Below, piece by piece: positions 17,383-34,312 of a DNA stretch of 40,807 nucleotides; position 1 is the stretch's first letter, and the number at the start of each line of letters is the position of its first letter. The translations under genes and the position numbers were made by a program. The stretch covers positions 1-40,807 of the forward strand of contig CANRTI010000011.1 in assembly GCA_947642635.1 (NCBI GenBank). Direction: 5' to 3'. The notes under the pieces are model-generated. The model was not told the origin of the DNA, searched no databases, and worked only from the letters and a program-made list of their open reading frames with translations. Source of the stretch: an uncultured Mycoplasma sp. Lineage in GTDB: Bacteria > Bacillota_I > Bacilli_A > RF39 > UBA660.

Positions 17383-17413
17383 AAAAATAAAGTTCACAAT
17401 TACTTTATTTTTT
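17382..17413. terminator. Bidirectional terminator between convergent genes
   Basis: A perfect 12-bp inverted repeat AAAAAATAAAGT/ACTTTATTTTTT (arms 17382-17393 and 17402-17413, 8-base loop) between the convergent HTH gene and tagA. T runs follow on both strands; it overlaps the last codons of tagA. Confidence 0.75.
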
Positions 17414-18109
17414 TATTTGCCATACAAATTTAACATTATTCTTCCAAAATCTTTTTAGTCTTGCAGGTTCTTTAATAATACGATAAAACCACTCTAAATT
17501 ACATTTTATAAATATTTTTGGAGCTCTTTTTTTATAACCACTTAATACATCAAATGACCCTCCAACTCCAATAAATATTCCCTTAGAAAATTTATTTAAA
17601 TATTTATAAATTATTTTTTCTTGTTCTCCTACTCCAAGAGCCACTAAACAAACATCTGGTTCTAATTTAATAATTTTCTTAAATACTAAATCTCTATTCT
17701 TGACATAACCATTACTATAACCTTTGATAACAATATTAGGATAATCATTTTTAATATTTTCTACTAATTTACTTACTACTTCTTCTTTAGCTCCAAATAA
17801 ATAAATTGATTTTTTTTGAACATTTAGCTCTTTTAACAAATATTGTGAAATATCTATTCCCGTAATTCTTTCTTTAACAGGAAGTTCTAATTTACGACAA
17901 GCTTTTACTACACCAATTCCATCTGGAACTAAAACAACATTTTTATTAAGCAGTATTTCACTCATAAGTAAATCTTTTTTTGCTAACATAACTGTTTCAG
18001 GATTAACTGTTATGATAAATCTCTTACTATTATTTTTTAAATCTTTTTGTAATAAATTATAAAATTCTAACTCACTACCTTGATATATTTTTTTTAAATA
18101 TTCTTGCAT
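17405..18109 (-). CDS. tagA: WecG/TagA/CpsF-family glycosyltransferase
   Basis: TagA-family (GT26) enzymes add a ManNAc-type sugar to undecaprenyl-PP-GlcNAc, the second step of teichoic-acid linkage-unit synthesis. 234 residues, typical. Motifs are TVNPETV (34-40), VPDGIGV (61-67), RITGID (81-86), GVGGSFDVLSG (181-191), RAP (195-197) and LEWFYRIIKEPAR (205-217), the membrane-facing C-terminal signature. It is the last gene of the glycopolymer region, three bases after a GT4 gene. TagO (35826-36911) and the UDP-GlcNAc 2-epimerase (19440-20549) provide the preceding steps. The exact sugar donor is inferred. Confidence 0.9.
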   Translation of the reverse strand: MQEYLKKIYQGSELEFYNLLQKDLKNNSKRFIITVNPETVMLAKKDLLMSEILLNKNVVLVPDGIGVVKACRKLELPVKERITGIDISQYLLKELNVQKKSIYLFGAKEEVVSKLVENIKNDYPNIVIKGYSNGYVKNRDLVFKKIIKLEPDVCLVALGVGEQEKIIYKYLNKFSKGIFIGVGGSFDVLSGYKKRAPKIFIKCNLEWFYRIIKEPARLKRFWKNNVKFVWQIKK

Positions 18110-18112
18110 TAT

Positions 18113-19384
18113 TTACTTTTCATCCTTTTTTATTAAATCAATAATAGCTCTAGCTTTCTTACTCCAATCATTTTCTTTGGCTTCAGCATCTAATAATTTT
18201 AAATATTTTTGATCATTTTTTAAAGTTAATCCTTTATCTAAATTTTTTAAAAATTCTATATGATTTTTCGATAATAAAACACTTTTATATTGTCGACATT
18301 CATATAAATCAGTTATTACAATCGGAATATTTAATGCCATATATTCAAATATTTTAACCGGACTTGTCGATTTAGTAATATCATTAATCACAAATGGAAT
18401 CATCAAAATATCAGCTTTCTTAGCATAATATTTTAATACTTGATAATCTCTAGAACCTAAAAAATAGATATTCTCTTCTTTATTAATATTTAAATCATAA
18501 CTATCATCATATTTAATTCCTAAAAGTACAACACTGTAATTATTTGTTTTAGCTATTTTTTTTATTAAATCATAGTCAAACCATTTAGCTAATGCTCCAT
18601 AATACATTACAATTGGTTTATTCTTATTTAATACTTCTTGAAATGCATCATCTACTTGAAAGTCACTCTCAAATTCTTGAAAAAATTTATAATCTACTCC
18701 ATTAGTTGATAAAACTAAATTCTTTTTTCCTCGATGATTTTCTACATCTTTTTTAAGTAAATCGGCTGTTACTACTACATAAGTATTATCATGATTCATT
18801 ACATAATTATATTTATCAATAATATTTTGCGGTAAATTCTTTGTTCCCGCTAAATCTGGTGATAAATGATCTACATATTCATAAATAAATCTATAACCAT
18901 TATTTAAATAATTTTCAATATTAGCAATCGATAACTTCCAATCTGTCGAATATAATTGTACATATTTTGGTTTCTTTATTTTATCTAATTCTTCCATTAA
19001 TATTTTGTTTAATTTAATATTATTAAAATTAAATAAATAAATATTCTCTTGATGCTTTTTTAAAGATTTTACTTTATCCGTCATAGTGGTCACTTCATAG
19101 AATACTAAACATTTATTTTTAGATAAATTATTTGCAATATGTTGCGGTCTTTGAAATAATGGCACATTATATCCAAAACTACTCCGCCATAAAATTATCC
19201 GTTCATATTTTTCATTTTTTAAAATATCTTTTATTTTTCTTTGATATTTCTTTTGATGTAATAAAACTTCAAAACTAATTTTATCTAAATAATTTGCAAT
19301 TATATAAGCTCTTAATTTTTTACAAAAACCCAAAAACCCATACTTTTTATAAACATTTACTAACTTAGAAACTTTCTCTTTCAT
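18113..19384 (-). CDS. GT4-type (GT-B fold) glycosyltransferase
   Basis: A cytoplasmic glycosyltransferase of about 423 residues. The start is ATG 19384 with AGGTGAT seven bases before it; the GTG at 19393 lies within that ribosome site. Residues about 70-85 contain GYNVPLFQRPQHIA, a signature seen in many cell-surface GT-B enzymes. The C-terminal donor half has VMYYGALAKWFDYDLI, ILMIPFVIND, and STSPVKIFEYMALNIPIV, the usual E-x7-E-like nucleotide-sugar site. It sits between wecB and tagA, so it most likely extends the linkage unit or polymer. Donor and acceptor unknown. Confidence 0.82.
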   Translation of the reverse strand: MKEKVSKLVNVYKKYGFLGFCKKLRAYIIANYLDKISFEVLLHQKKYQRKIKDILKNEKYERIILWRSSFGYNVPLFQRPQHIANNLSKNKCLVFYEVTTMTDKVKSLKKHQENIYLFNFNNIKLNKILMEELDKIKKPKYVQLYSTDWKLSIANIENYLNNGYRFIYEYVDHLSPDLAGTKNLPQNIIDKYNYVMNHDNTYVVVTADLLKKDVENHRGKKNLVLSTNGVDYKFFQEFESDFQVDDAFQEVLNKNKPIVMYYGALAKWFDYDLIKKIAKTNNYSVVLLGIKYDDSYDLNINKEENIYFLGSRDYQVLKYYAKKADILMIPFVINDITKSTSPVKIFEYMALNIPIVITDLYECRQYKSVLLSKNHIEFLKNLDKGLTLKNDQKYLKLLDAEAKENDWSKKARAIIDLIKKDEK

Positions 19385-19418
19385 GTTTATCACCTATAAA
19401 TAAATTCTAGCATATAAA

Positions 19419-19445
19419 AAGTAAAAAGCAAATTACTTTTTACTT
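19419..19445 (-). terminator. Terminator after wecB
   Basis: A 10-bp perfect stem AAGTAAAAAG/CTTTTTACTT (19419-19428, 19436-19445) overlapping the wecB stop, followed by five T on the minus strand. Partial read-through into the downstream GT4-tagA pair is likely, as no clear promoter was found for them. Confidence 0.6.
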
Positions 19446-20549
19446 AAAATAATCAATTATAGCATCAACAATTTTTTGACTAGCTGTCCCATCCCCATAA
19501 GGATTTGAAGCATGACTCATTTTGTCATACGCACCTTTATCTATTAATAACTTTCTAGTTTCTTCATATATAGTCATTTCATCAGTTCCAACTAATTTTA
19601 AAGTTCCAGCTTGTATTCCTTCTGGTCTTTCAGTTGTATCTCTTAAAACTAAAACTGGTTTTCCAAGACTCGGTGCTTCTTCTTGAATACCCCCACTATC
19701 AGTTAAAATAAGGTAAGATTTATTTTGAAAATTATGAAAATCCAAAACTTCCAAAGGTTCAATCATTTTAACCCTATCACTTTCTCCTAAAACTTCTTTA
19801 GCAACATTTCTAACCAAAGGATTCATATGAATCGGATAAATTACTTTAACATCTGAAAACTCATCTACAATCCTTTTTATAGCTCTAAAAATATGATACA
19901 TTGGTTCTCCTAAATTTTCTCGACGATGAGCAGTTAATAAAATCATTTTTTCATTATCTTTAATCCATTCTAATTCTGGATGAGTATAATTATCTTTAAC
20001 TGTAGTCTTCATTGCATCAATAGCCGTATTTCCTGTTACATAAATTTTATTACAAGCAATATTTTCTTTTAAAAGATTTTCTTGACTTATTTTAGTTGGG
20101 GCAAAATACATATCTGTCATACAGTCCACCATTTGCCGATTCATTTCCTCTGGAAAAGGCGAATATTTATCATATGTTCTAAGTCCTGCTTCAACATGTC
20201 CAATTGCTACTTGATTATAAAAAGCTGCTAAAGCACCTGCAAATGTTGTTGTAGTATCTCCATGAACTAAAACAATATCTGGTTTACATTCTTTAATAAC
20301 TTTCTCTAAACCATTTAATGCTCTTGTAGTCACATCACCTAAAGTTTGACCTTGTTTCATAATATTTAAATCATAATCTGGCTTTATTTGAAAAGTTTCT
20401 AAAACTTGATCTAACATTTCTCGATGTTGCGCTGTCACACATACTATACTTTCAATCTCTTCTCGACTTTCTAGCTCTTTAACTAAAGGAACCATTTTAA
20501 TAGCTTCTGGTCTTGTCCCAAAAATACTCATTACTCTTATTTTTTGCAT
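19440..20549 (-). CDS. wecB: UDP-N-acetylglucosamine 2-epimerase (non-hydrolysing)
   Basis: Interconverts UDP-GlcNAc and UDP-ManNAc, the donor for TagA-type transferases. 369 residues, normal. Motifs in order are FGTRPEAIKM (10-19), VHGDTTTT (95-102), GHVEAGLRT (117-125), FPEEMNR (132-138), TAHRREN (206-212), DSGGIQEEAPSLGKP (284-298) and RDTTERPE (303-310). Strong ribosome site AGGAGG before the ATG, with its own promoter. Also called mnaA in Gram-positive bacteria. Confidence 0.95.
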   Translation of the reverse strand: MQKIRVMSIFGTRPEAIKMVPLVKELESREEIESIVCVTAQHREMLDQVLETFQIKPDYDLNIMKQGQTLGDVTTRALNGLEKVIKECKPDIVLVHGDTTTTFAGALAAFYNQVAIGHVEAGLRTYDKYSPFPEEMNRQMVDCMTDMYFAPTKISQENLLKENIACNKIYVTGNTAIDAMKTTVKDNYTHPELEWIKDNEKMILLTAHRRENLGEPMYHIFRAIKRIVDEFSDVKVIYPIHMNPLVRNVAKEVLGESDRVKMIEPLEVLDFHNFQNKSYLILTDSGGIQEEAPSLGKPVLVLRDTTERPEGIQAGTLKLVGTDEMTIYEETRKLLIDKGAYDKMSHASNPYGDGTASQKIVDAIIDYFK

Positions 20550-20565
20550 AATTACCTCCTAATAA

Positions 20566-20594
20566 ATTGTAACAAAAATAATACATTAAGTCTA
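20566..20594 (-). promoter_or_regulatory. Promoter of wecB
   Basis: Minus strand TAGACT (20589-20594), 17 bases, TACAAT (20566-20571). One mismatch in each box from common sigma-A forms; the boxes end 16 bases before the ATG, with AGGAGG between. Confidence 0.55.
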
Positions 20595-20624
20595 TGATAT
20601 ATAATTTATATTTTTCTAATTATT

Positions 20625-21747
20625 TTACCTTGATTTTTTATCTTGATTTTTTAAAGCATTAAAAAGTAGACTATTATACATATCATATATATTTTTTAAA
20701 TAATCATCATTATCACATGGAACAGAATATAAATAAGGTAAAATTCCATTTTCAATTAATTCTACAACCATTTTCATCGATTTACCACTAGGATAGAATG
20801 CATAATAATTTGAATATTTTTGTGTTAAATATTCATCTACAACAACATCTCTATTAAAAGTAGATTTAACTTCAACAGTGTTTTTCACATATTTCAATAA
20901 CATAAGCTTAAATTTTTCACATTTATCTAAAGGCGCATTCAGATAAATAACCGCTTTTTTATCATTTTTTTTCAAAATTGTAATTATTTCTCTAACTACC
21001 AAAAAAAGTTGATTAAAATCCGAGTCAAACAAACAATCAATCAAAATAGTATCGTTATCACAATTTTCTTGTTTTAAATTTACAGCTTCTTCATATTTTC
21101 TTCTCCAATATAATGCAATTTGTTTAACAGAATCTGGAATTAATACCTCATCTTTTAATATTTCTTCAACATCTTTAGAAATCTTAAAATCAGCATTTCT
21201 TTCAACTCTAGTTTTCGCAAATAAAAATGAATCGCGCCACGTATGATCAACAAAATATGTAACATATAAACTAAAAAATAATTCACCTATATAATTATGA
21301 GCTAAATTTTCTAAAGGGACGGTAAAAATATCTGGAACTCTTCCAAATTGGATATAAAACAACGCTTTTCTATAAATTTGAACTGGAGAAACTATACTGT
21401 AAATTCGATTGCAATTCTCAAGATTTGCTACTTGACAAGCAACATAACATTCATCTCCAGAATTATACACTCCATCTTTTGAATATAATTTATTCATTTC
21501 ATCCGCTCTTATATTAGTAAGCGGAATTCCATTTTCTAGTAAATATCTTTTACCAGCCTCACTTAAAGAAATATTATCTGACACATATTCCTCATTTTTT
21601 ATAATACTATGTTTACTTCCAGGAATATAAATAATAACTTCATTATTTTTGGATTTTTCATATTTATAAATATCTATTGCTTTATCTAACCTTGAAGTAA
21701 ATTCCGCATTCGGTTGGATATTAATTAAAGGATGACAAGCTGCAACT
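20625..21747 (-). pseudogene. 3' part of a DUF218/YdcF-like gene split by an insertion sequence
   Basis: The open frame continues upstream of the GTG at 21584 without a start, back to the insertion junction: it reads through CHPLINIQPNAEFTSRLDKAI at its beginning. The segment carries the core of a DUF218 (YdcF/ElyC-type) domain: RLDKAIDIY, IIYIPGSKHS, LSEAGKRYLLENGIP, VYNSGDECYVA, and IVSPVQIYRKALFY. The last 190 residues (from about FVDHTWRDSF) are not recognised. DUF218 proteins are linked to envelope precursor metabolism in other bacteria; here the gene lies among glycosyltransferases. Joined to the 5' part (23018-23387), the original protein has 493 residues. Translation from the internal GTG would miss the start of the domain. 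Confidence 0.85.
21737..21747. repeat. Target-site duplication, left copy
   Basis: AAGCTGCAACT immediately outside the left end of the insertion; the identical 11 bases are found at 23018-23028 outside the right end. ISAs1-family elements are generally described with 8-10 bp duplications, so 11 is slightly long and one or two bases could be chance matches. Confidence 0.75.
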
Positions 21748-23017
21748 AAGGCAATCGCATAAAAACTTTACGTAAATAATCAAATGGAGAGGATTATATT
21801 AAAGATAAGATTTTCAATATTTTTAAAATCAAAAGAATAACGAGTAAGTTTTTTCTTTAAAGTAAGATTTCCCATAGAAGTATCTAAACGAGCTAAATTG
21901 AAGACAATCTTTCTGATAATAGCTAAATTATGATAGAATTGTCTTTTTTACTTGTAGAATGGTCTTCATCTAAAATAACATCTAATCTCCAGTGAAGAGA
22001 ACATTCAATATTCCAGTGTTCTCTAGTAATATCTCTAAACTTTTCAATGGAAAATTGTTGACTTAAAATATAATAATTTTTTGTAATAGAAACTTGATTG
22101 TTTTCTTCTTTATAAACATCCATTCTAGCAATAGCTCTAACAGATTTCCACTTATCTTGATTATGAATACAATTAGTATCATAAGAAATATAATAAGTTC
22201 TTTTTTCTATTCTTCCATGTTCTTTTTCATAATTAGTTTCAAAAATATCAATATCTGAAGAATCTCTTTTTAGTTCTAAATCAAAATTAGTTTTAATATC
22301 ATCTTTTAAATCTTTTTGATTATCTTTAGCTTTTAATATATAAGCAGCTTTCTTCTCATAAACAATTTTGTTAGCAATCTCTTCTTGAGTACCAATCGCA
22401 TCAATAGTAATAATCTTTCCTTTAACATCAATTAAATCAAGAAGATTAGGAATAGCAGTAATTTCATTAGATTTATCATCAATTTTTAATTGACCAATAG
22501 AAAGCCCAATATCACAAAGAAAGCCAGAAAGAATGTAGGGGAAGTTACCATTATTTACTTTATCTCTAGCACTTTTAATTGCTTTACCATCTATAGCGAT
22601 ATGAAGACCATTTTGACCTACAATATCTTTAATCCATTCGATAAAAATATTCATAAATTTATTAGGGTTAATTAAAGAGAATATTCTAGAAAAAGTATCA
22701 TGAGAAGGAATACCATTATCAAGACTTAATAAATTAGTAAAATAGTTTTCATGTAAAGATAAAAAATCAACCATATTAACAAAGTCAGTATAACCACATA
22801 AAGTACCATAAATAGTTAAAATTAAAATGTTTATTAATTTATGTTTTTTACCTCTAATATCTCTTGGGTCTTCTAATACCTCAAAATGATTAAATAATGT
22901 TTTCATATATATCATACATCCTTTTATTAATAGAATACATGATATTTTCATTTATTTTCATATATTTAAAGAATAATTATATCACTATGTCAATATATTT
23001 TTTTATGCGATTGCCAT
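21748..23017 (-). mobile_element. ISAs1-family insertion sequence, 1270 bp
   Basis: Bounded by 18-bp terminal inverted repeats, one mismatch: left A-A-GGCAATCGCATAAAAA (21748-21765), right, read on the minus strand from 23017, A-T-GGCAATCGCATAAAAA. It carries one transposase gene on the minus strand, followed by about 175 bases without another gene (the out-of-frame tail of the transposase and the left end). It is flanked by an 11-bp direct repeat. Removing the element with one repeat copy joins the DUF218-like frame without loss of a base, so the insertion is recent. Confidence 0.88.
21923..22906 (-). CDS. ISAs1-family DDE transposase, C-terminal tail frameshifted
   Basis: From ATG 22906 (ribosome site AAAGGATG) about 327 residues; an ATG at 22951 is less likely. 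The N-terminal H-repeat-associated part is VLEDPRDIRGKKHKL. The DDE residues are Asp106 in IAIDGKAIK, Asp169 in ITIDAIGTQ, and Glu301 in REHWNIECSLHWRLDV, with KSNEITAIPNLL between, all typical for ISAs1. The frame stops after KKDNSIII. The next frame continues with NLAIIRKIVFNLARLD and about 40 further residues to roughly 21790, which matches the usual C-terminus of the family, so one base seems to be missing near 21930-21945. The catalytic core is complete; whether the shortened enzyme works is unknown. Confidence 0.85.
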   Translation of the reverse strand: MKTLFNHFEVLEDPRDIRGKKHKLINILILTIYGTLCGYTDFVNMVDFLSLHENYFTNLLSLDNGIPSHDTFSRIFSLINPNKFMNIFIEWIKDIVGQNGLHIAIDGKAIKSARDKVNNGNFPYILSGFLCDIGLSIGQLKIDDKSNEITAIPNLLDLIDVKGKIITIDAIGTQEEIANKIVYEKKAAYILKAKDNQKDLKDDIKTNFDLELKRDSSDIDIFETNYEKEHGRIEKRTYYISYDTNCIHNQDKWKSVRAIARMDVYKEENNQVSITKNYYILSQQFSIEKFRDITREHWNIECSLHWRLDVILDEDHSTSKKDNSIII

Positions 23018-23028
23018 AAGCTGCAACT
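23018..23028. repeat. Target-site duplication, right copy
   Basis: AAGCTGCAACT, identical to 21737-21747, directly outside the right terminal repeat of the insertion. Confidence 0.75.
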
Positions 23029-23387
23029 TCTATTAATATTTTTTGAGGCTTTAAATTTAAATCAACTGGTTTTATATGATTTTTAATATTTTGCCAATAA
23101 CCATCTACTTGATTTAAATCCGGAGGTACTATAAAAAAGATAATAGCTAACTCCAATTCTAGCCTATTTGCTTCACTTAAATTTATACTCCCACTTTCAA
23201 TTTTCCAAAAATGTTCTATCGCCAAAGATTTTAATTCTTCACCAGATAGTTTTCTTAAATTATTAATCAAAAATTCTACATTCTTTCTATCTTTTAAACT
23301 TTCTAACAAATCTTTACCTACACTTGATAAAAAAGTATATCTAACAGTTTCAAAATCATTATTTAAATCATATAAATCTTTATTCAT
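23018..23387 (-). pseudogene. 5' part of the DUF218/YdcF-like gene, cut by the insertion
   Basis: Begins at ATG 23387, overlapping the stop of the preceding GT-C gene by one base (TAATG) with ribosome site GGTGAT. It encodes about 123 native residues, ending in QKILIEVAA, after which the frame enters the insertion and stops at 22977 (136 residues in total). The N-terminal 110 residues are helical (LLESLKDRKNVEFLINNLRKL, then LELELAIIFFIVPPD) and precede the DUF218 core found at 20625-21747. On the unbroken allele the sequence would read EVAA then CHPLIN. The truncated product lacks the core domain and is presumably inactive. Confidence 0.85.
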
Positions 23388-24874
23388 TAAATATCACCAC
23401 TTAATTCATAATAATGAAAGCCATAAAAGTTGTTTACTTCATCATAATTTTGATTTAAAAATTTTATAAATTTATTAAAATCATAATATTTAAGATTCAA
23501 ATATTTTTCCAAAGACGAATCAGAAATTAATATTAATTTTGGCAGTTCTTTATTTAATTCATTATATAACTCATCCAAGACTTTTACTTTTTCTGAATCA
23601 TTAACATCAAAATCTATAGGTAAATACAAATATTTACTTGCAGATAATCTTTTGGTATGATACATAAAATTATAACCATCAAAAATATAAATTCTATCAT
23701 TTATAGAAGTTAAATTATCTACAGATTTATAAAAAATATTATCATATTTACCTATTAAATTTTTAAAAATATTATCGCTAACATTTAAAAAACTATTATA
23801 TCCCAATAATAATATTACAAATAAAAATATAAATCGGTTTTCTTTAAAGAAATTGGAAACTTTATCAATCATAACACCAATCGGAAAAGCAATCAAAGGA
23901 ATAAAACTTAACGAATAATGTGAAAAATTTGCATTAGACATTGTGGATAAATACATATTAAATATAATACTAACTAATACCCCCACATGAACCAAAGAAA
24001 ATTTTAATTCTTTCTTTTTAAACACACAATTCATTACATATCCAAAATATAAAATAATAAATATATAACCATAATTACTTAAATTTAACAATAAATTATG
24101 TAATATTTGCATTTTTTCTATAACAGTCTTATCAGAAAAATAAGAAGAAGGCCCAAAATAAACTTGTTGCAAAAAATCTAACAAAGCATCATTAAAATAA
24201 AAATACAATAAAATTGGAATAATTAATATAAAACAACCGCCTAAAAAACTTCCGACCGCAATAATTAAATCTTTAAATTTCTTTTTATATAGTAAATTAA
24301 TAAATATAATTAAAGCAAAGCCAACAAAAACTGCAATCAAATTTGCTCTAATCAATATTGAAGCAGCAAAAAAAAAACCAATAATACCAATTTCTAATGG
24401 ATTCACTTTATAAAATTTTAAATATTTACAAAATAAAAATAAAGATATAAACGTAAACGGCAAAACAAACTCTTCTGTTAAAACCCCATTCCAAAAAATA
24501 TTATTTATTGAAACAAAGGTCAAAATAGTTGATATTAGACTAATATTTTTACTATAAAATAAATTTAACGACCTATAACAAAATATACATGATACAAACA
24601 TTAAGAATACTTCTATAACAAATATCCCCCATGTATTATTTACTAATTCACCTAAAGCCAATAAATAATAAAACACTGGACCTTTATTATCGTACATATC
24701 TTTATAAGGAATTTCACCTTTAGTAATTCCATATGCTATTTGCTTATAAATTGCCGCATCAGAATTTGCAGCATACGATCCAGCTATAGAAAAAGAAGAT
24801 TGTAAACAAATAAATACCGAAATAACAAACAATATAATCAAAATTAAATAATTTTCTTTTAAAAATTTTTTCAT
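23387..24874 (-). CDS. GT-C-fold membrane glycosyltransferase (GT39/ArnT-like)
   Basis: A multi-pass enzyme of 495 residues with about ten or more hydrophobic segments. The first extracytoplasmic loop has SDAAIYKQIAYGITKGEIPY followed by KDMYDNKGPVFYYL, the acidic-motif layout of GT-C transferases that use polyprenyl-phosphate sugars (Asp38 and Asp62 are the candidate catalytic acids). A moderate soluble C-terminal part follows. The gene is just after a polyprenyl-phosphate sugar synthase and a GtrA flippase, so the three form a complete outside-the-membrane glycosylation module. The acceptor is probably the wall glycopolymer made by this locus. Strong ribosome site AAAGGAG. Confidence 0.82.
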   Translation of the reverse strand: MKKFLKENYLILIILFVISVFICLQSSFSIAGSYAANSDAAIYKQIAYGITKGEIPYKDMYDNKGPVFYYLLALGELVNNTWGIFVIEVFLMFVSCIFCYRSLNLFYSKNISLISTILTFVSINNIFWNGVLTEEFVLPFTFISLFLFCKYLKFYKVNPLEIGIIGFFFAASILIRANLIAVFVGFALIIFINLLYKKKFKDLIIAVGSFLGGCFILIIPILLYFYFNDALLDFLQQVYFGPSSYFSDKTVIEKMQILHNLLLNLSNYGYIFIILYFGYVMNCVFKKKELKFSLVHVGVLVSIIFNMYLSTMSNANFSHYSLSFIPLIAFPIGVMIDKVSNFFKENRFIFLFVILLLGYNSFLNVSDNIFKNLIGKYDNIFYKSVDNLTSINDRIYIFDGYNFMYHTKRLSASKYLYLPIDFDVNDSEKVKVLDELYNELNKELPKLILISDSSLEKYLNLKYYDFNKFIKFLNQNYDEVNNFYGFHYYELSGDI

Positions 24875-24893
24875 CTAAAGCTCCTTTACTTCT

Positions 24894-24922
24894 ATAATAA
24901 CAAAAACATCAAATTTTATCAA
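24894..24922 (-). promoter_or_regulatory. Promoter ahead of the GT-C gene
   Basis: Minus strand TTGATA (24917-24922), 17 bases, TATTAT (24894-24899), between the terminator of the upstream operon and the GT-C ATG at 24874. Confidence 0.55.
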
Positions 24923-24944
24923 TAAATAGAAGATAAATAAAAAA

Positions 24945-24963
24945 CTAATTTTTTATCAATTAG
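24945..24963 (-). terminator. Terminator after the polyprenyl-phosphate sugar synthase gene
   Basis: CTAATT/AATTAG arms (24945-24950, 24958-24963) followed by six T on the minus strand; overlaps the end of the gene at 24956. Short stem, so efficiency is doubtful. Confidence 0.5.
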
Positions 24964-25747
24964 TTAAATTATTTTCTTTCAATATTTTCCTTTTTTTATT
25001 TCTCAATTTTAAAGCAGTAATTAAAGAGTTTTTTACAGTCTTTAACACTTTCATTTTACTTTCGCCTAATTTATTATCATATCGTAGTACAAAACCCGTT
25101 TCTCCAATTTTAGCACCACTTAAATGCAATTTATATATTATTTCCATCATACAAGAAAAACCAGATTCTTCAATAAACTTATCACCATAATCCTTAAAAG
25201 CTTTTGCAATAATATTATATGAATATACTCTATATCCACAAGTGTAATCCTGTACATTCGGTATCTTTAACATTAGTTTATAATAAAATTTTGCACCTGA
25301 ACTCAAAAAATTTCTATGTTTAGGAACTCCAACTATTTCAGAATTATCACAATATCTCGAAGCAATAACACAATCCAATTTATTATCAAAAAGATTTTTT
25401 AACATATCATTAATGTACTTAGGATCATGAGTATTATCACCATCCATTACACAAATCAAATCTCCATCTTTTCCAATATCTAAAAATTTTTTAAAGCCAG
25501 TTCTTAATACACCACCTAAATTTTGATTTTTTAAATGATATATTGGTTTAACATTTGAATACTTTTTCTCCATTTTCATTATTATTTCTTTAGTACTATC
25601 AGTGCTTTTATCATCCACTGGCATAATAATTAAATCATAATTAAAATTATTTTTTAAATTATCTCTTTGCTTATACCAAGAATCAATTAAACTTTCAATA
25701 TTCTCTGACTCATTATATGCAGGCAATAACGCATAAATTTTTTTCAC
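24956..25747 (-). CDS. GtrB/DPM1-type polyprenyl-phosphate glycosyltransferase (GT2)
   Basis: Transfers a sugar from a nucleotide donor to a polyprenyl phosphate on the cytoplasmic face. About 263 residues from GTG 25747, chosen because AGGAG lies eight bases before it; the TTG at 25765 precedes that ribosome site. GT-A motifs are LPAYNESENI (near residue 8), DDKSTDST, and MDGDNTHDP (DXD, near 101-109). The C-terminus is basic without the two membrane segments of GtrB, so it is DPM1-like. It follows gtrA by 14 bases. Together with GtrA and the GT-C enzyme it makes a three-part side-chain glycosylation system. Confidence 0.88.
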   Translation of the reverse strand: MKKIYALLPAYNESENIESLIDSWYKQRDNLKNNFNYDLIIMPVDDKSTDSTKEIIMKMEKKYSNVKPIYHLKNQNLGGVLRTGFKKFLDIGKDGDLICVMDGDNTHDPKYINDMLKNLFDNKLDCVIASRYCDNSEIVGVPKHRNFLSSGAKFYYKLMLKIPNVQDYTCGYRVYSYNIIAKAFKDYGDKFIEESGFSCMMEIIYKLHLSGAKIGETGFVLRYDNKLGESKMKVLKTVKNSLITALKLRNKKRKILKENNLTN

Positions 25748-25761
25748 AAATAACACTCCTA

Positions 25762-26169
25762 TCAATTAAACTTTTCATATAATTTTTTTCTAATAATATA
25801 TAATCCAAAAAAAGGTATTATAATAGACAAACTCTTAGAAATCAAAAAACAAATTTTTTCTGAGGCAAAATAGCTTACTAATACTTCATTAGAATAATAA
25901 ATTATTAAATTTGCTATAATTAAACCAAATACAAACGTACAAATATATATCAATAAATTTTTAGACTTTTTCTCTTCAACATGAAATACTAATTTTGAAT
26001 TTAATAAATATTGCACTATCGCACCACTTATAACACCAACAGAATTAGCAACTACTAAAGAAAAAAAAGATTTAAAAATATAAGTTATAATAATATCAAT
26101 TATAGTAACAAAAATAGATATAATACCATATACTATAATTTTTTTATATTTTTTTAAAAGATTAACCAT
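25762..26169 (-). CDS. GtrA-family membrane protein (lipid-linked sugar flippase)
   Basis: 135 residues with four membrane segments, the standard GtrA size. The family pattern is visible at the N-terminus (VYGIISIFVTIIDIIITYI) and in NSVGVISGAIVQYLLNSKLVF, where the N-x-x-F/L-V-F motif after the second segment is typical. GtrA proteins are thought to flip polyprenyl-phosphate sugars to the outside. Overlaps the UGM-like gene by eight bases and precedes the polyprenyl-phosphate sugar synthase. Ribosome site GAGG before the ATG. Confidence 0.88.
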   Translation of the reverse strand: MVNLLKKYKKIIVYGIISIFVTIIDIIITYIFKSFFSLVVANSVGVISGAIVQYLLNSKLVFHVEEKKSKNLLIYICTFVFGLIIANLIIYYSNEVLVSYFASEKICFLISKSLSIIIPFFGLYIIRKKLYEKFN

Positions 26170-27436
26170 TTACAACCTCATTTTCTAATTTATCTGCTAA
26201 TTCTTTTGCTTCTATCATACAATCTTCCATAGAACAGTATGTCCAACCACCATATCTTCCAATTGAAAAAATAGATTTTTTAGATAAATTAGACAATACA
26301 ATTTTTATTTTATTATCTGTTTCTTTATTAATATGAACATAAGCAGGATTCATAACAATAGGTACATAATCAACCAATTCAAAGGTATCATCAATTATAT
26401 TTTGTTTTTTCAAATTATCTATAGTAAGCTCAAGTTGCTTATTAATTTCATTATCAGTAATTTTTATATCTTTATTATAACCAATCTCAACATACATACT
26501 TAACTTATTTTGATTTAAAATATTATCATAAAAACCAATACGATAATAATTACAATCTTTACTTGGTATGTACAACCAATGCTCATTTTTTAAATAAGAT
26601 TTTTTATTAAACCCTAAATTAAAAACTAATACTTGATTATAAGATAATTGATTGGCTAATTCAGGCTCATTAACAAAATTCAAAAAATTATTTAATGGCA
26701 TAGTATTAATTAAATAATCATAATATATAATGTTATTTTTAGAAGTTTTAACAAATTTTTCATTAATATTTATTTGAACAACATTTTCTTCTAACACAAT
26801 TTTTTCTTTATCTAATTTCTTCTCTAATATTTTAATAAAAGACTGTGCTCCATTTTTAGGATATAAGAAATTATTATTATAAGAATTATTATTTGATTCT
26901 TTCATATTTTTAATTATTAATTCTTTATCAGCATAAGGAAAAAATCTCCCCATTGCTTCAACATCTAATTTTGCTAAATCAATAGCATAAAGTTTTTCAT
27001 TATATGGTTTCAAAAATTTTTCAACAATACTTTTTCCAAATTTTCCATAAAGCATATCCAAAAAATTATCATAATTTTTTTTCTCAGCTTTATTAAATAA
27101 ATCATATAAACAATCAATAAATTCCTCTTTTTCTAACTGATGAATATTCATTTGAAAAGGATAATCAATTAATTTATTATTATAAATAATTTTAGTACAT
27201 TTATTTTGATAAACAATATCCTTCTTTGGTAAATCATTTATAAATTTATTCTTAAATTCATCATTTTTAAAATGAAAGAAATGTCCTGCATAATCCCAAA
27301 TATAATCTTTTCTTTTAATAGTGCGACAATAACCGCCAACTTCTTTTTCTTTCTCTATTATAACATAATCCTTAACATAATTAGCAAAGGTTAATCCAGA
27401 AATTCCCCCACCAATTATTAAATATTTAGTCTTCAT
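26162..27436 (-). CDS. FAD flavoprotein, UDP-galactopyranose-mutase-like
   Basis: About 424 residues from ATG 27436 (ribosome site GGGAGA eight bases before). The N-terminus has the FAD Rossmann motif IIGGGISGLTFA, an acidic end of strand two (IIEKEKEVGGYCRT), and WDYAGHFFH. Further on IDYPFQMNIHQL and FLKPYNEKLYAIDLAKLD resemble UDP-galactopyranose mutases, especially the eukaryotic-type branch; the C-terminal FAD motif is SIGRYGGWTYCSMEDCM. It likely rearranges a nucleotide sugar (for example pyranose to furanose) for the surface polymer. A different FAD-dependent amine-oxidase-type reaction cannot be excluded. It sits between a glycosyltransferase and gtrA with overlapping ends. Confidence 0.75.
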   Translation of the reverse strand: MKTKYLIIGGGISGLTFANYVKDYVIIEKEKEVGGYCRTIKRKDYIWDYAGHFFHFKNDEFKNKFINDLPKKDIVYQNKCTKIIYNNKLIDYPFQMNIHQLEKEEFIDCLYDLFNKAEKKNYDNFLDMLYGKFGKSIVEKFLKPYNEKLYAIDLAKLDVEAMGRFFPYADKELIIKNMKESNNNSYNNNFLYPKNGAQSFIKILEKKLDKEKIVLEENVVQININEKFVKTSKNNIIYYDYLINTMPLNNFLNFVNEPELANQLSYNQVLVFNLGFNKKSYLKNEHWLYIPSKDCNYYRIGFYDNILNQNKLSMYVEIGYNKDIKITDNEINKQLELTIDNLKKQNIIDDTFELVDYVPIVMNPAYVHINKETDNKIKIVLSNLSKKSIFSIGRYGGWTYCSMEDCMIEAKELADKLENEVVNG

Positions 27437-27441
27437 AAACA

Positions 27442-28722
27442 CTATCTCCCCTTTATGCTTCCAATCAATTCATCAAATTTACATGCTACAGTTACCGCGT
27501 CAAATCTTTCCGCATAATCAAAATTTAATTTTTTAGAAAAACCCTCATAAATTATTAAATATAAATAATTTAATATTTCTTCAGCATTATTCTCTAAACA
27601 TAAAGAATTATATTCTTTTAATATTTCTGAACTAGCCCCATCTAACATTGTTATTCCAAATATTCTTTTTTTTGAACCAATATAATCAGCTAGCTTAGCT
27701 GCAAAAAATATATTTTGATCAGTAATATCACTTATATTAGCGTCGATTAATATTAACCAATCCGCCTTCTGCATAACTTCTAAGCTTTTTAAATAATCTA
27801 TATTTTTTTTAATTCTAACAAAACTCAATAAATCATTATTTAAAAGATATAGTTTTTCATTATCACTCATACTACCATAAAAATAAAATTCTACTTTATC
27901 TTCTAACTCAGGATCTAATTCATTTAATCTATTTAAAGCAACAAATAATTCATGAGGAGATCTCACATCGTCTAACGAACCAACATATGTAAAAACTATT
28001 TTTTCATTTCTATGTTTTATTTTTTTATATAATGAATTGTCATAACTATGATATAATACTACAGCTTTTTTTATCAAATCTTCTTTATTTTTATAGTCTT
28101 GTAACATATAACTTTGTTGAAACTTATTATTAAATATTATATAATCACATTTATTAATTATTTCTTTTTGCAATTCATTATTATCTTCAATAAAAAATTT
28201 TTCCCTTTTTTTGTAATTCATTTTATATCTCAACGATCTTAAAATTCGAAAAGGAGAAATAATTTCTTTTAAACCCATATGTCTTACATATCTTTGATCT
28301 AATGAATATGGATTACAATATTTTATAACTTTTAACGTAAATGGATTATTACCAATCGGATCACCAAATGATGCTATCCATTTAATATTTGGTTTTATTT
28401 TTTTTATTTCTAAACCTATTATATGAGAAACTTCTGGCATAGATCTAGTCATAACTATATCATATTTATCCAAATTTTCATAAAAATAATCTATTGCTTC
28501 TTTTTTAAATTCATTCAAATCTTTTGCATCAGAATCAATTCTTCTAATATTTTTTCCTAAAATAATATCATCAGATTGTCCATATGACCAACTTTCATTA
28601 TTATGTTGAGTATAAACATCATATTCATATTTTGAATTATTTAATAATTTAAAAGTAACTAATCCTTCTGATGAATTTATTGGTGGAAAAAACCAACTTA
28701 TTACTAAAATCCTTTTTCTCAT
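27442..28722 (-). CDS. GT-B-fold glycosyltransferase (GT4-like)
   Basis: 426 residues. The N-terminus ILVISWFFPPINSSEGLVTFKLL is the usual opening of GT4 enzymes (Gly-rich acceptor loop replaced by SSEG). The donor half starts near FTYVGSLDDVRSPHELF, with YFYGSMSDNEK and later ADWLILIDANIS and FFAAKLADYIGSKKRI, which covers the E-x7-E nucleotide-sugar region in a divergent form. It overlaps the upstream GT2 gene by four bases (ATGA) and the next gene follows at once. Substrates are unknown; context indicates polymer assembly on a lipid carrier. Confidence 0.75.
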   Translation of the reverse strand: MRKRILVISWFFPPINSSEGLVTFKLLNNSKYEYDVYTQHNNESWSYGQSDDIILGKNIRRIDSDAKDLNEFKKEAIDYFYENLDKYDIVMTRSMPEVSHIIGLEIKKIKPNIKWIASFGDPIGNNPFTLKVIKYCNPYSLDQRYVRHMGLKEIISPFRILRSLRYKMNYKKREKFFIEDNNELQKEIINKCDYIIFNNKFQQSYMLQDYKNKEDLIKKAVVLYHSYDNSLYKKIKHRNEKIVFTYVGSLDDVRSPHELFVALNRLNELDPELEDKVEFYFYGSMSDNEKLYLLNNDLLSFVRIKKNIDYLKSLEVMQKADWLILIDANISDITDQNIFFAAKLADYIGSKKRIFGITMLDGASSEILKEYNSLCLENNAEEILNYLYLIIYEGFSKKLNFDYAERFDAVTVACKFDELIGSIKGR

Positions 28723-29765
28723 GACAATCTCTTCCTTCTAAGTCTATTTCTTAAATTATATAAATAATTAAAAGATTTTTTTAACATCTTATTTTTTATC
28801 TTTACAAACTTAAAATTTGTTTTACGGTGGTATCGAATAAAAGCAACCTTATTAGACTTTTCATATAAATCCCTATCAATCGACATAAAATATTTATCGA
28901 ACTCAACAATTTGACTATAAGTCTCATTTTGATTTTTATCATAAACACAAAAAATAGTATAATGAGTATTTAGCAAATAAATTAATATCATCTCCAAATA
29001 ATCTCTTTTAACTTTAGATATTTTTGATTTAATATTTTTGTAATATTCAATTAAATATTTCAATACTTTTTCGTGTGATAATTTGTTTTTTACAAACGAA
29101 TCAATATTAACACTTTGATTTTTTCTACCTATATAATATCTATAAACATCAAGATTATAATAAACAAAAGTTTGTACTTCTTTAATTGGCTCAATATTAT
29201 ACTGCATATCAACATAAAATGTTTTTTCTAACAAACAAAGTTTCGAATTTTTTAAAATATCAAGTTTATAAGTTGAAGTAGCCATTACAAAATATTCACC
29301 ATTCAAAATGTTTAAATCAATATCATCAAAATAATATACCTTATTCTCTACCAAATTTTTATAAATATAAATGCTTTCGTGTTGATCATAAACATGAATT
29401 TGACGATAATTAGTAACTACTAAATCAGCAGTTTCTTTTTTTAATTTCTGAACAAATTTTATAAAATCAACACATTTAAACCAATCATCACTATCTAAAA
29501 CACGAAAATACTTTCCTGTAGCCAATTCCAATCCTTTGTTTATTGTAGATCCATGACCACCATTTTCTTTTTCAATCAATTTTATTGTATCAGGATATTT
29601 CCTTCTGTATTCTTTTACAATATTTACTGAGTCGTCTTTACTGCCATCACTTACAACTAAAATTTCTATATCATTAATAATTTCTTTTAATAAAATACTA
29701 TCCAAACATCTCTTTATATATTTTTCAGTATTATAAACAGGAATCAAAATTGTTAAAATTTTCAT
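28719..29765 (-). CDS. Family 2 glycosyltransferase
   Basis: 348 residues. GT-A motifs are TILIPVYNTEKYI (6-18), VSDGSKDDS (38-46), KENGGHGSTINKGLELATGKY and VLDSDDW (DXD, 89-95). The remaining 200 residues are a helical extension with a basic end (KIKNMLKKSFNYLYN then RNRLRRKRLS) that may associate with the membrane. No membrane segments. It comes directly after the TagH ATPase gene and overlaps the next glycosyltransferase. Likely adds one sugar to the exported polymer. Confidence 0.88.
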   Translation of the reverse strand: MKILTILIPVYNTEKYIKRCLDSILLKEIINDIEILVVSDGSKDDSVNIVKEYRRKYPDTIKLIEKENGGHGSTINKGLELATGKYFRVLDSDDWFKCVDFIKFVQKLKKETADLVVTNYRQIHVYDQHESIYIYKNLVENKVYYFDDIDLNILNGEYFVMATSTYKLDILKNSKLCLLEKTFYVDMQYNIEPIKEVQTFVYYNLDVYRYYIGRKNQSVNIDSFVKNKLSHEKVLKYLIEYYKNIKSKISKVKRDYLEMILIYLLNTHYTIFCVYDKNQNETYSQIVEFDKYFMSIDRDLYEKSNKVAFIRYHRKTNFKFVKIKNKMLKKSFNYLYNLRNRLRRKRLS

Positions 29766-29777
29766 AATTATACACCT

Positions 29778-30539
29778 CTACCTACCACTCATAAACTTTT
29801 TATACTCGTCACACACTTCTTTTCCACCAATTTTTTGCACACCCCCATGTTCTAGCCAAACAACTCGATCACACATCTTCTTGATTTGTTCAATCGAATG
29901 TGAAACAAACAATACAGTAGTCCCTCCACCAATCATTGATAACATCTTCGCTTCACTTTTCGCTTGAAAAGCCATATCACCAACTGCTAAAATTTCATCA
30001 ACAATTAATATTTCAGGATCAACAATCGTTGCTATTGAAAAAGCGAGTCTTGCCACCATTCCGGATGAAAAATTTTGTACGGGAACATCTAAAAAATCTT
30101 TTAACTCCGAGAATTCCACAATTTCTTCAAACTTTGAATCAATTAATTCTTTTGAATACCCCATCACCGCTCCATTTAAATAAATGTTTTCACGCGCTGT
30201 CAATTGAGGATCAAACCCTGCTCCTAATTCAATCATCGGACAAATATTTCCATAAGTTTTAACACTACCCTTAGTAGGTTTCATAACTCCCGAAACAACT
30301 TTTAAAAGTGTCGATTTACCAGCCCCATTGGAACCAATAAAACCAATTACTTCTCCTTTTTTTACTTTAAAATCTACATCTTTCAAAGCCCAAAAATTAT
30401 TTTTTTCTTTCTTTCGCCTCTTATCTTTTTGAAAAAAATTAATAAATCCTTGTTTTAAAGAAAAACCTTTTTCAATCCCTAAATTAAAACGCATAGAAAC
30501 ATTTTCGACTTCAATCATTATATCTTTCTTATCTTTCAT
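29778..30539 (-). CDS. tagH: Teichoic-acid/polysaccharide exporter ATPase (TagH/Wzt-type)
   Basis: ABC ATPase that pairs with TagG to export a lipid-linked polymer. 253 residues. It has the family-specific N-terminal insertion (FSLKQGFINFFQKDKRRKK), then Walker A GSNGAGKST (69-77), IELGAGFDPQLTARENIYLNG (the polymer-exporter Q-loop region), signature NFSSGM (156-161), Walker B LIVDEILAVGD (178-188), and switch FVSHS (His214). It lacks the C-terminal carbohydrate-binding domain found in some Wzt proteins and the SH3-like tail of Bacillus TagH, so substrate recognition is probably by the common mechanism. Strong AGGAGG ribosome site, eight bases after tagG. Confidence 0.9.
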   Translation of the reverse strand: MKDKKDIMIEVENVSMRFNLGIEKGFSLKQGFINFFQKDKRRKKEKNNFWALKDVDFKVKKGEVIGFIGSNGAGKSTLLKVVSGVMKPTKGSVKTYGNICPMIELGAGFDPQLTARENIYLNGAVMGYSKELIDSKFEEIVEFSELKDFLDVPVQNFSSGMVARLAFSIATIVDPEILIVDEILAVGDMAFQAKSEAKMLSMIGGGTTVLFVSHSIEQIKKMCDRVVWLEHGGVQKIGGKEVCDEYKKFMSGR

Positions 30540-30547
30540 AAAGCCTC

Positions 30548-31342
30548 CTACACATAATAGATAAATTTATCTTGGTTTTTCCTAAAGATAAATATCCCCA
30601 ACAATAATATTCCAAATCCACAACCAAAGCAATAAATCCACACATTTAATGTTGGCACAGCATGATATAAAATAATATCTCGGGCAAATTTTACAAACCA
30701 ATATAAAGGATTAAACTTAAAGAAAAATTGTAAATTTTCCGGAATAATCGAAATATCATACATAATTGGTGTCAAATATGTCCATAAAGTAATAACTACT
30801 CCATAAATATAAAACATATCTCTTAAAAACACTGAAATTGTTGATAATATCAATCCAAAACCAAATGTAAACATAAATAAACATAAGAACATAAAAGGAA
30901 GCAACAAATGATGTACTGTCACACCAGTTCCGGTTGCAAATATTATGATATATAATGGTATTAAAGTCAATAAAAAATTAATCCCTACAAACAAACATTT
31001 TGTCAAAGGAAAAATATATTTAGGAATATAAACTTTATTTATTAAACTAAAATTAGCTACTACACTACTCATCGCTAAATTCGAAGCTTCATTAAAATAA
31101 TTAAAAATTACCAGACCACTCATCAAATAAGCTAAATAGCTAACTCCTGGTGTTGTTGTTTTAAATATATTAGTAAATACAATCGCCATCACCGCCATTG
31201 TAAGTAAAGGATATAACAAACTCCATAGAACACCTAAAACACTTCTTTTATATTTAACTTTAAAATCACGAGTTACTAATTGCTTAACTAAAAAACTATA
31301 TTTCTTATAAGTATATTTTAAATTATTTATTATTTTTTTCAT
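30548..31342 (-). CDS. tagG: Teichoic-acid/polysaccharide exporter permease (TagG/Wzm-type)
   Basis: ABC-2-type permease, about 264 residues from ATG 31342 (AAAGGA eight bases before it); the in-frame TTG at 31384 is unlikely. The amphipathic N-terminus with FLVKQLVTRDFKVKYKRSVLG followed by VLWSLLYPLL is the hallmark of the Wzm/TagG family. Six membrane segments follow, with TPIMYD and FNPLYWFVKFARDIIL near the fifth. Cotranscribed with tagH. Together they move the undecaprenyl-linked polymer across the membrane. Confidence 0.9.
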   Translation of the reverse strand: MKKIINNLKYTYKKYSFLVKQLVTRDFKVKYKRSVLGVLWSLLYPLLTMAVMAIVFTNIFKTTTPGVSYLAYLMSGLVIFNYFNEASNLAMSSVVANFSLINKVYIPKYIFPLTKCLFVGINFLLTLIPLYIIIFATGTGVTVHHLLLPFMFLCLFMFTFGFGLILSTISVFLRDMFYIYGVVITLWTYLTPIMYDISIIPENLQFFFKFNPLYWFVKFARDIILYHAVPTLNVWIYCFGCGFGILLLGIFIFRKNQDKFIYYV

Positions 31343-31364
31343 TACAAGTATCCTTTCATTATTT

Positions 31365-31394
31365 ATTATAACAAAAATCCTCAATTATTAGCAA
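31365..31394 (-). promoter_or_regulatory. Candidate promoter for the tagGH-glycosyltransferase operon
   Basis: Minus strand TTGCTA (31389-31394), 18 bases, TATAAT (31365-31370), overlapping the last codons of the upstream ligase-like gene and ending 22 bases before the tagG ATG. Confidence 0.5.
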
Positions 31395-32850
31395 GTTTTT
31401 TGCTCATATTACTGCCCCTAATCCAATTTAAAATAAATGCAAATGTAATCGTCGGAAACAAAGAATTAATAATATTTCCTGTTAAGTAAGCTGAAAACAT
31501 AAATAAAACTATACAAGATAATGTTAAAAAAACTTCAAATGATCTTTCTTTAATAAATTGATAACTATAATAAAACAATATTATAATATAAAAACTTAAT
31601 AATATAATACTTCCCAATATTCCAAAAGCATAATAATGTAATAAAAAATCTCTTTCAATATTTACTACATTTTGAATTCTAACGTTTGAAATTCCCACTA
31701 AAAAATCTAATTTACTATTATTTATCTCTAACATTCTTAAAACAATACTCTTTTCAATATATCGATAATTTATCTCTTCCATTTTATTATTTTTTACAAA
31801 ATCATACCAAAAATCTTCATCATCTCGCATCGGGTAATATTGTTCAAAAAAGATATTTGGTAAATAATCTGGATTATAATTATCTAAAACAAATTGTTGT
31901 TTTTCACTTGTTTTATTCTCCGTTTTGTTAATACCATCATTAACATTTTGATTACCATTATTATTTAAAACATTACTATCTAAAACAGACGTATTACTTT
32001 TATTTAACTCACCATTACGGTTCATAAACGGCGAAATTGGTAATAACAATCCCCAAATTAATATCACCCCTAACACTAGCCAAACCTTATGATTAATTTT
32101 TTCTTTTCGATATTTTGTTAAAATCAAATACACAACTAGTAAAACGCCTAAAGATAAAAGTCCCCCTAAAGAGGATACTCTCGTTCCTAACATTAACATT
32201 GCCATCCCAATAGCAAACATATAAATAATATTTCGCTTTCTTTCTAAAAGAAAACTAAAACTTACTACTAATAAACAAAGTAATACTACTGCTACTTGAT
32301 TAGCATACATAAAATAACCTTTTGACGCCGTTTCTAAATAATAAATATTCTTACTCCAAGAAAATATATTATATTTAATTACTCCTTCTCCATAACTACT
32401 TAAACTAAACTTTAATAAATTCGTCACTATAATTGAACCAGCCATTAAAATAATCCATAATTTTAACATCTTACCATATTTTTCTCGTGCAATTTTTTGA
32501 TAATATAGACTATATAAAAAAGTTCCCGACATCAACAATTTAATAATCGCCACCCCTTCATTAATTACACTATATTCATTTACGACTAAAGAATTAAATG
32601 AAAAACTTTTCCACCAAGATATGCCTAAATAAATTAAACAAAGTCCATAATATAAGAAAATATATTTTAAATTTTTTCGTGATTCTTTAAAAATTATTAA
32701 TGTTAAAATAAATATAATACTTAACAAAATAACTATCACTAAATTTGTATAATGATTATGCAAAAAAGTTAATCCGGTCAAAGGAAATATTCCTAAAAAA
32801 ATTAAAGTTAAAATTTGCACTAATTTTTGATTTTTTGATAATTCTAACAT
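31381..32850 (-). CDS. O-antigen ligase/polymerase-like membrane protein
   Basis: About 489 residues from ATG 32850 (GGTGAATAAA just before; the GTG at 32862 is part of that ribosome site). Around ten or more membrane segments with the layout of the O-antigen ligase / Wzy-like family: NQVAVVLLCLLVVSFSFLL and MAMLMLGTRVSSLGGLLSLGVLL (Thr-Arg in the TR-S motif) before a large extracytoplasmic loop of about 120 residues, then two or three more segments. The loop is Asn-rich at first (NTSVLDSNVLNNNGNQN) and then Tyr/Asp-rich. It probably polymerises or ligates the glycan outside. It lies upstream of the TagGH exporter genes. Family call is moderate; a pure hypothetical membrane protein is possible. 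Confidence 0.7.
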   Translation of the reverse strand: MLELSKNQKLVQILTLIFLGIFPLTGLTFLHNHYTNLVIVILLSIIFILTLIIFKESRKNLKYIFLYYGLCLIYLGISWWKSFSFNSLVVNEYSVINEGVAIIKLLMSGTFLYSLYYQKIAREKYGKMLKLWIILMAGSIIVTNLLKFSLSSYGEGVIKYNIFSWSKNIYYLETASKGYFMYANQVAVVLLCLLVVSFSFLLERKRNIIYMFAIGMAMLMLGTRVSSLGGLLSLGVLLVVYLILTKYRKEKINHKVWLVLGVILIWGLLLPISPFMNRNGELNKSNTSVLDSNVLNNNGNQNVNDGINKTENKTSEKQQFVLDNYNPDYLPNIFFEQYYPMRDDEDFWYDFVKNNKMEEINYRYIEKSIVLRMLEINNSKLDFLVGISNVRIQNVVNIERDFLLHYYAFGILGSIILLSFYIIILFYYSYQFIKERSFEVFLTLSCIVLFMFSAYLTGNIINSLFPTITFAFILNWIRGSNMSKKLANN

Positions 32851-32893
32851 TTTATTCACCAAATTAATTATAACTTATGAATAAATAAAAAAA

Positions 32894-32910
32894 AAGAAGA
32901 AAATCTTCTT
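32894..32910 (-). terminator. Terminator after spoVIF
   Basis: AAGAAGA/TCTTCTT stem (32894-32900, 32904-32910) with a three-base loop, then eight T on the minus strand. Overlaps the spoVIF stop. Confidence 0.7.
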
Positions 32911-33151
32911 AAAACATTTTATCAATATTTTGGGGAACATTACCATTAATTACTTTACTAACTATTTTATCACTTTGTTCTTTACTAATATTTTTACCAG
33001 TCATTTTACTTAAAGTTTCAATTACTTCTCTTAAAGTTTTTTCATCTTTCATATTTCCATTTTGTAATTTTTCAGCTAAACCAATTATGGTATTTTTATC
33101 CACCTTTGTTTTTTTCTCCACCTTATTAAAAAAAGAATCACTTAAATTCAT
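32909..33151 (-). CDS. spoVIF: SpoVIF-like small protein (stage VI sporulation protein F family)
   Basis: 80 residues matching the Bacillus SpoVIF family across their whole length: FFNKVEKKTKVDKNTIIGLAEKLQNGNMKDEKT, then a Leu-rich segment, LSKMTGKNISKEQSDKIVSKVINGNVP and a short end. Bacillus SpoVIF is needed for normal coat assembly late in sporulation. Here it is in an envelope-polymer locus, 45 bases after yerB, with GAGGTG before the ATG and a terminator at its end. Homologues are also annotated in Firmicutes not known to sporulate, so the name marks family, not function. Identification is from memory of the pattern. Confidence 0.75.
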   Translation of the reverse strand: MNLSDSFFNKVEKKTKVDKNTIIGLAEKLQNGNMKDEKTLREVIETLSKMTGKNISKEQSDKIVSKVINGNVPQNIDKMF

Positions 33152-33196
33152 ATAACACCTCTAAATTATTATATGATTAAGTAATTCAAATGTTTA

Positions 33197-34240
33197 TTAA
33201 CCTATTGTTAAAGTTCCCGTTTTTGGATATATTTGAATGAAAGTATTACCATCTGAAACATCTATTTCTGTTCCATCTAAATACATATACTTAGTTTTAC
33301 TTTCTCGATCTTTTTTACTCCATTTAATTGGTATGCTGTAACCATTCGTAATATAAACGCCTTTTCCTTCTCCAATATTTTGTAAATCTTTTAATTTTTC
33401 ATCATAATCATTATATTGAACATCATAAGCAATAATATTTTTAAATTTATATTGTTCACCAGTTACTAAATCAACATGTTTTTGCCCACTCATACTCCGA
33501 TAATACATTTTATCTTCACTATTATATTCATAACTAGATGTTTGATAATTAGAATATTTTATCGCTACTGTATTTGCAACTTCTGCCCCTTCTTTTTTCG
33601 ATAAATCTACTTCATCAACACTATAATTTAACAAATAACCTTTATCTGTAGTAGTTCTTAATTTTAATTTTTCAATTCCTTGATGAATTAAATCCGTACT
33701 TGTAAATCCTGTATGTTCGGTTGCTCTTTTTAAAGTTTTATCACGCGTAAAATATTTTCCTTCATAAGTTATTCCATCTAATCGATCTAATCCTAATTCT
33801 TTTAAATGCGCATAAGCTACATAAGAACCACCCCAGTGTACATAAATAGCATCATTTTCCATAACATAATCTAAATAATTATGTCTTGAACTTCTTACTG
33901 AACCAATTTTATCTACTTTAGCATCTTGCGTATATAAAGCCATCATTCTTGTAATGCCACCTTCAACCATTATCTCATAAATTAAATAAGCATCTTTCAA
34001 ACCTGATTGTGGCCAAGCAGCCCGATTATTATTAATCATTACTGCAATCGGTCTTTTATCACTATTTAAATCAACTATTTGAACACTTTTATTAGAATCA
34101 TCCACTTTATCCGGTTTCTTTTCAACTGGTTTATCATCTTTTAATAAAAAGAAAACTCCCACTACTATAGCAATTAATAACAAAGAGCCAATTACTATTG
34201 CACCAATCATATATTTTTTATCAAATTTAATTTTTTTCAT
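33197..34240 (-). CDS. yerB: YerB-like DUF3048 protein, membrane-anchored
   Basis: 347 residues. One membrane segment at about 10-33; no lipobox Cys, whereas Bacillus YerB is a lipoprotein. The extracytoplasmic DUF3048 part is clear: RPIAVMINNNRAAWPQSGL, AYLIYEIMVEGGITRMMALY, KIGSVRSSRHNYLDYV, and a second domain around YKFKNIIAYDVQYNDYD to GTLTIG. The molecular function of DUF3048 is not known. The gene follows the LCP ligase gene, with TAGGAG before the ATG. Its place beside tagO and LCP suggests a role in the envelope, which is only guilt by association. Confidence 0.85.
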   Translation of the reverse strand: MKKIKFDKKYMIGAIVIGSLLLIAIVVGVFFLLKDDKPVEKKPDKVDDSNKSVQIVDLNSDKRPIAVMINNNRAAWPQSGLKDAYLIYEIMVEGGITRMMALYTQDAKVDKIGSVRSSRHNYLDYVMENDAIYVHWGGSYVAYAHLKELGLDRLDGITYEGKYFTRDKTLKRATEHTGFTSTDLIHQGIEKLKLRTTTDKGYLLNYSVDEVDLSKKEGAEVANTVAIKYSNYQTSSYEYNSEDKMYYRSMSGQKHVDLVTGEQYKFKNIIAYDVQYNDYDEKLKDLQNIGEGKGVYITNGYSIPIKWSKKDRESKTKYMYLDGTEIDVSDGNTFIQIYPKTGTLTIG

Positions 34241-34289
34241 TTTTTTACTCCTAACTACATCTATTATAACTTATTTACTAATTAAAAAA

Positions 34290-34310
34290 AAGAATTAATT
34301 AAACATTCTT
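34290..34310 (-). terminator. Terminator after the LCP gene
   Basis: AAGAAT/ATTCTT stem (34290-34295, 34305-34310) with a 9-base loop, followed by a run of eight or more T on the minus strand, two bases past the LCP stop. Confidence 0.55.
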
Positions 34311-34312
34311 AA

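Follow-up and report, generated by a model that had tools for sequence, protein, structure and literature searches.

Does the insertion sequence (IS) that splits a gene at 20625-23387 (minus strand) of the window (the whole stretch of 40,807 nucleotides that was analysed, from an uncultured Mycoplasma sp.) represent an ordinary inactivation of that gene, or a reversible switch of a surface polymer? The interrupted gene runs from an ATG at 23387 to a stop at 20625 and consists of a 5' part (23028..23387, -), whose ATG overlaps the upstream stop codon (TAATG), and a 3' part (20625..21746, -), which encodes a remote DUF218-like domain and a C-terminal third. The 5' part now reads as 136 aa (ORF 22977-23387), its final residues being IS-derived. 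Joining of the flanks by script, with one repeat copy kept, produced a frame of 1,482 bp (493 codons) with zero internal stops, the other two frames of the joined strand containing 54 and 76 stops respectively. At the rebuilt junction (LIEVAA|CHPL) the IS cuts between A and C.

One relative of the split gene was found: WP_013483453.1, a hypothetical protein of 565 aa encoded by the Ruminococcus albus 7 plasmid pRUMAL01, which is 43% identical to the rebuilt protein over 176 residues and in which the motif cut by the IS is intact (LIEVAAQHPL, versus LIEVAACHPL in the rebuilt protein). Because this uninterrupted protein matches across the junction, the joined frame, beyond merely being open, is independently confirmed by sequence comparison as the ancestral frame. 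Thus the exact rebuild proposed in the preliminary description (EVAA-CHPLIN, 493 codons and no stop) was reproduced, and an uninterrupted homologue crosses its junction. The locus is a clean textbook case, with a pre-insertion gene that is exactly readable and validated by a distant homologue.

The transposase matched the ISAs1 model NF033564 (E 3e-89; 299 bits, cut-off 70), with the Pfam domains DDE_Tnp_1_assoc and DDE_Tnp_1 both above cut-off, confirming that it is of ISAs1 type. The ends and the target-site duplication (TSD) of the element were fixed by comparison with six related loci (L016, L019-L022 and L025). On this basis the IS occupies 21747..23018 (-; 1,272 bp), with its transposase co-directional with the operon. 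Its 19-bp ends, distal (21747..21765, TAAGGCAATCGCATAAAAA) and proximal (23000..23018, reverse complement TATGGCAATCGCATAAAAA) to the transposase start, are 95% complementary and lie just within an 11-bp direct repeat (AAGCTGCAACT, at 21737-21747 and 23018-23028). The 11-bp match is the sum of a 9-bp TSD (AGCTGCAAC, at 21738..21746 and 23019..23027) and the terminal T and A of the element, which by chance equal the adjoining target bases. Because five complete relatives share both a 9-bp TSD and the same ends, the element was taken as 1,272 bp and its TSD as the 9-mer AGCTGCAAC; the rebuilt gene frame is the same whichever repeat length (9 or 11 bp) is chosen. The element thus has both the terminal inverted repeats and the short target duplication of fixed length that characterize the ISAs1 family. 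Of the earlier account of a 1270-bp ISAs1-type element between 11-bp repeats, the family and the presence of the repeat at both sides held, while the length of the element was corrected to 1,272 bp and that of the true duplication to 9 bp.

A scan of GTDB genomes revealed 12 related loci in metagenome-assembled genomes (MAGs) of uncultured Bacilli, the nearest relative having 84% protein identity and 83% DNA identity across the full element. The nearest copies (L016, with the 83% DNA identity, and L023) are from uncultured Bacilli MAGs, and L020 is from Candidatus Onthousia faecigallinarum. All five relatives with both ends readable (L016, L019, L020, L021 and L025) have an exact 9-bp duplication and the ends TATGGCAATCGC...GCGATT(G/A)CCTTA. 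The window copy shares with its relatives a DDE transposase, a length of about 1.27 kb, matching terminal repeats and the 9-bp duplication; unlike the five checked relatives, which interrupt no open frame, it sits inside a gene. Within uncultured Bacilli these elements make up an ISAs1 subgroup with well-defined bounds (ends TATGGCAATCGC, 9-bp duplication), which is of use for annotation. Two further arrangements were seen among the relatives: i) at L025 (64-1767) and L026 (391-2094) the same ISAs1 element is split by an apparent IS200-type TnpA gene, an IS within an IS, and the flanks in the two MAGs are identical on one side; ii) at L023 (2440-2460) a distal-type end (TAAGGCAATC) is present on both sides, the proximal end having seemingly been replaced.

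The transposase ORF as listed (21923..22951, -; 342 aa) carries a frameshift near its 3' end that had been overlooked in the preliminary description: a 1-bp deletion after residue ~340 (at about 21925-21940) truncates the frame, and the lost tail runs on in another frame to about 21790. The deleted base is present in seven aligned relatives, the frames of L017 and L019-L023 are intact, and the relatives share a conserved version of the lost stretch (NLAIIRKIVFNLARLD...); in this the window copy differs from its relatives. As assembled, the complete transposase frame of an autonomous element is therefore missing, which affects the autonomy of the element and not its family membership. The deletion could be an assembly error, because a ttcA-like gene (tRNA 2-thiocytidine synthesis) elsewhere in the window is likewise missing a single base. 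That gene (8345-9180, -) is read in two frames via an apparent 1-bp deletion near 8810, and its frames are long and uninterrupted in 11/11 genus relatives carrying the gene; its deletion is a genuine mutation or else an indel introduced by the assembly. For the window element, a broken transposase is the probable state. The element is also the sole ISAs1 transposase and the sole such end pair in the assembly (94.5% complete), and no solo element ends were found there. A weak second match to the element on contig C8 was rejected as chance, its surrounding 4 kb containing pilus-type genes but lacking a transposase.

The split gene lies within a cell-surface glycan locus (17405-36911, -), which includes TagO-like, LCP, DUF3048 and O-antigen ligase-like genes, an ABC exporter pair, several glycosyltransferases, WecB and TagA. 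The gene is translationally coupled (TAATG) to its upstream neighbour, which encodes a PMT_2-type membrane glycosyltransferase (23387..24874, -; Pfam PF13231), and is followed by a WecB-like UDP-GlcNAc 2-epimerase gene (19440..20549, -; Pfam PF02350, E 2e-124), a group 1 glycosyltransferase gene and TagA/WecG-type genes. The surface-polymer setting suggested earlier is thus borne out by the Pfam matches of the neighbours. The compared genomes of the genus share WecB and the group 1 glycosyltransferase as conserved genes but differ in the genes upstream of WecB, the variable segment of the locus across the genus lying between a UGM-like gene and WecB (L086-L091). No relative of the split gene was found in the 36 other genomes of the genus, in 60 near, about 390-395 class-level and about 390 phylum-level genomes, or in a GTDB pattern scan, IMG/VR or phages; the DNA pattern of the empty junction likewise had no match in IMG/VR. 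Five class-level genomes gave weak matches to the 3' part; these scored 16-19 bits, three contained stops, and all were rejected. The split gene is an accessory gene in the variable part of the glycan locus.

What the gene encodes is visible as a remote likeness to DUF218. The 3' part had no usable Pfam or NCBIfam match, and neither gene fragment matched PF02698 at E<=1. With a two-sequence profile, however, hhalign against DUF218 gave a probability of 95% over about 66 columns, covering the first half of the domain (reversed control, 0.2%). An HMM of DUF218 proteins, built mostly from proteins of the same clade, gave the 3' part 12.9 bits (best of 200 shuffles, 5.3), and the R. albus homologue scored 16.3 bits against PF02698 (E 0.0098), below the cut-off of 27.6. 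By eye, the SGG, NT..N and YH/FH of DUF218 (YdcF-ElyC-SanA, PF02698) appear to be replaced in the window protein by PGS, YNSGDEC and VQIYR. The "DUF218-like" label given to the gene earlier is therefore justified as a distant likeness (hhalign 95%) and falls short of family membership, the match being below the Pfam cut-off for PF02698. Single-sequence structure models of the 3' part and of its DUF218-like domain (pLDDT 41 and 38) were too poor for a fold search, and a search of solved structures returned no match. The long DUF218 proteins (482-488 aa) of genome G018 were rejected as counterparts, being membrane proteins of another architecture with a C-terminal DUF218. DUF218 proteins are little understood in E. 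coli, where ElyC functions in the biogenesis of the envelope and S-adenosylmethionine is bound by YdcF (PMC3879167).

The R. albus and window proteins differ outside the shared region. The N-terminus of the former gives a winged-helix-like match (Trans_reg_C) that falls just short of the cut-off, whereas that of the latter is helical; and the R. albus protein stops where the window protein extends for ~190 aa more. In addition, the R. albus gene is plasmid-borne and outside any glycan locus. Its fusion of a winged-helix-like N-terminus to a DUF218-like domain (L064, 10831-12528) suggests a ligand-sensing role for this homologue. Within the window protein, the C-terminal third (20628-21110, -) aligns weakly with the DUF218-like domain of the R. 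albus protein, with a score of 69 that none of 1000 shuffles reached (highest, 57), and does not align with its own first DUF218-like domain; it is perhaps a degenerate second DUF218-like domain arising from internal duplication.

Very probably, then, an accessory gene of the glycan locus was inactivated, fairly recently, by an ordinary IS insertion: an ISAs1-family element would have transposed once into the gene, duplicating 9 bp of target and inactivating it; the encoded protein, of 493 aa, had a remote DUF218-like domain. We infer that the gene product was lost after the insertion and that the insertion is not reversible but stable; because no other examined genome of the genus has the gene, its loss would alter the polymer little or not at all. 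As for age, zero nonsense changes in 493 codons places a 95% bound of ~46-49 neutral substitutions, or ~3% divergence, on the time since inactivation, presuming that the fragments are free of selection. A fairly recent insertion is plausible on this bound, which is weaker than the "very recent" of the preliminary description.

It is quite improbable that both fragments work as separate polypeptides, the 3' part being translated from a restart or by readthrough from the IS. A possible restart is the GTG at 21584, which stands behind a plausible ribosome-binding site (GAGGAATAT) and opens a frame of 319 aa, and neither fragment has decayed; yet the break and the GTG restart together remove the beginning of the DUF218-like domain and with it the RL..A..Y segment conserved with R. 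albus, and the 5' fragment terminates in IS-derived residues. A misjoin of the element into the contig is scarcely credible: the assembly is of metagenome type and the window contains at least two suspicious 1-bp deletions, but an identical 9-bp sequence flanks the element on either side and its ends are correct at each junction, the hallmark of a real transposition, and a repeat-collapse misjoin is unlikely for a single-copy element.

The preliminary description raised a possible switch of surface-polymer structure, which is not supported. As a rival reading, such a switch would toggle the DUF218-like gene, and through it the glycan, by precise excision and re-insertion, in the manner reported for IS492. 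H-repeats belong to the ISAs1 group. IS492 in Pseudoalteromonas atlantica is known to switch a polysaccharide by precise excision, and is a cited precedent for IS-driven variation of exopolysaccharide (PMC2536512); H-repeat remnants in Salmonella O-antigen clusters are proposed mediators of recombination (PMC3715488). Both cases resemble the window in having an IS in or beside surface-polysaccharide genes (PMC2536512, PMC3715488). Unlike them, the window presents a simple insertional inactivation with no sign of excision or recombination. The exactness of the reconstruction and the undecayed state of both gene halves speak for a switch; on the other hand, no sign of programmed excision was observed, IS492 differs from this element and excises by a mechanism of its own, and the only ISAs1 transposase in the assembly, which is 94.5% complete, is frameshifted, this frameshift being possibly an error. 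Because the assembly has no second copy, the transposase is probably broken and no empty allele was observed in the genomes searched, a reversible switch is very improbable, although an intact second copy could lie in the missing part of the assembly. Equally little credence can be given to a polymorphic, excisable insertion that controls an uncharacterised DUF218-like glycan modifier in this uncultured Bacilli lineage.

Ordinary inactivation is compatible with a polymorphic insertion in which some strains keep the intact gene and no excision takes place. The chances of such a polymorphism appear evenly balanced: the insertion is single and recent-looking, neither half contains a stop or frameshift, and neutral divergence is at most about 3%; against this, no allele of any kind was found in the genomes searched. 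Accessory glycan genes are commonly inactivated by ISs, and the general picture is unchanged by the insertion in the window.

Elsewhere in the window, a gene at 38382-40103 (-) encodes a secreted protein which, by eye, begins with an SH3-like part, continues with a glucosaminidase-like one and ends in a dockerin-like C-terminus.
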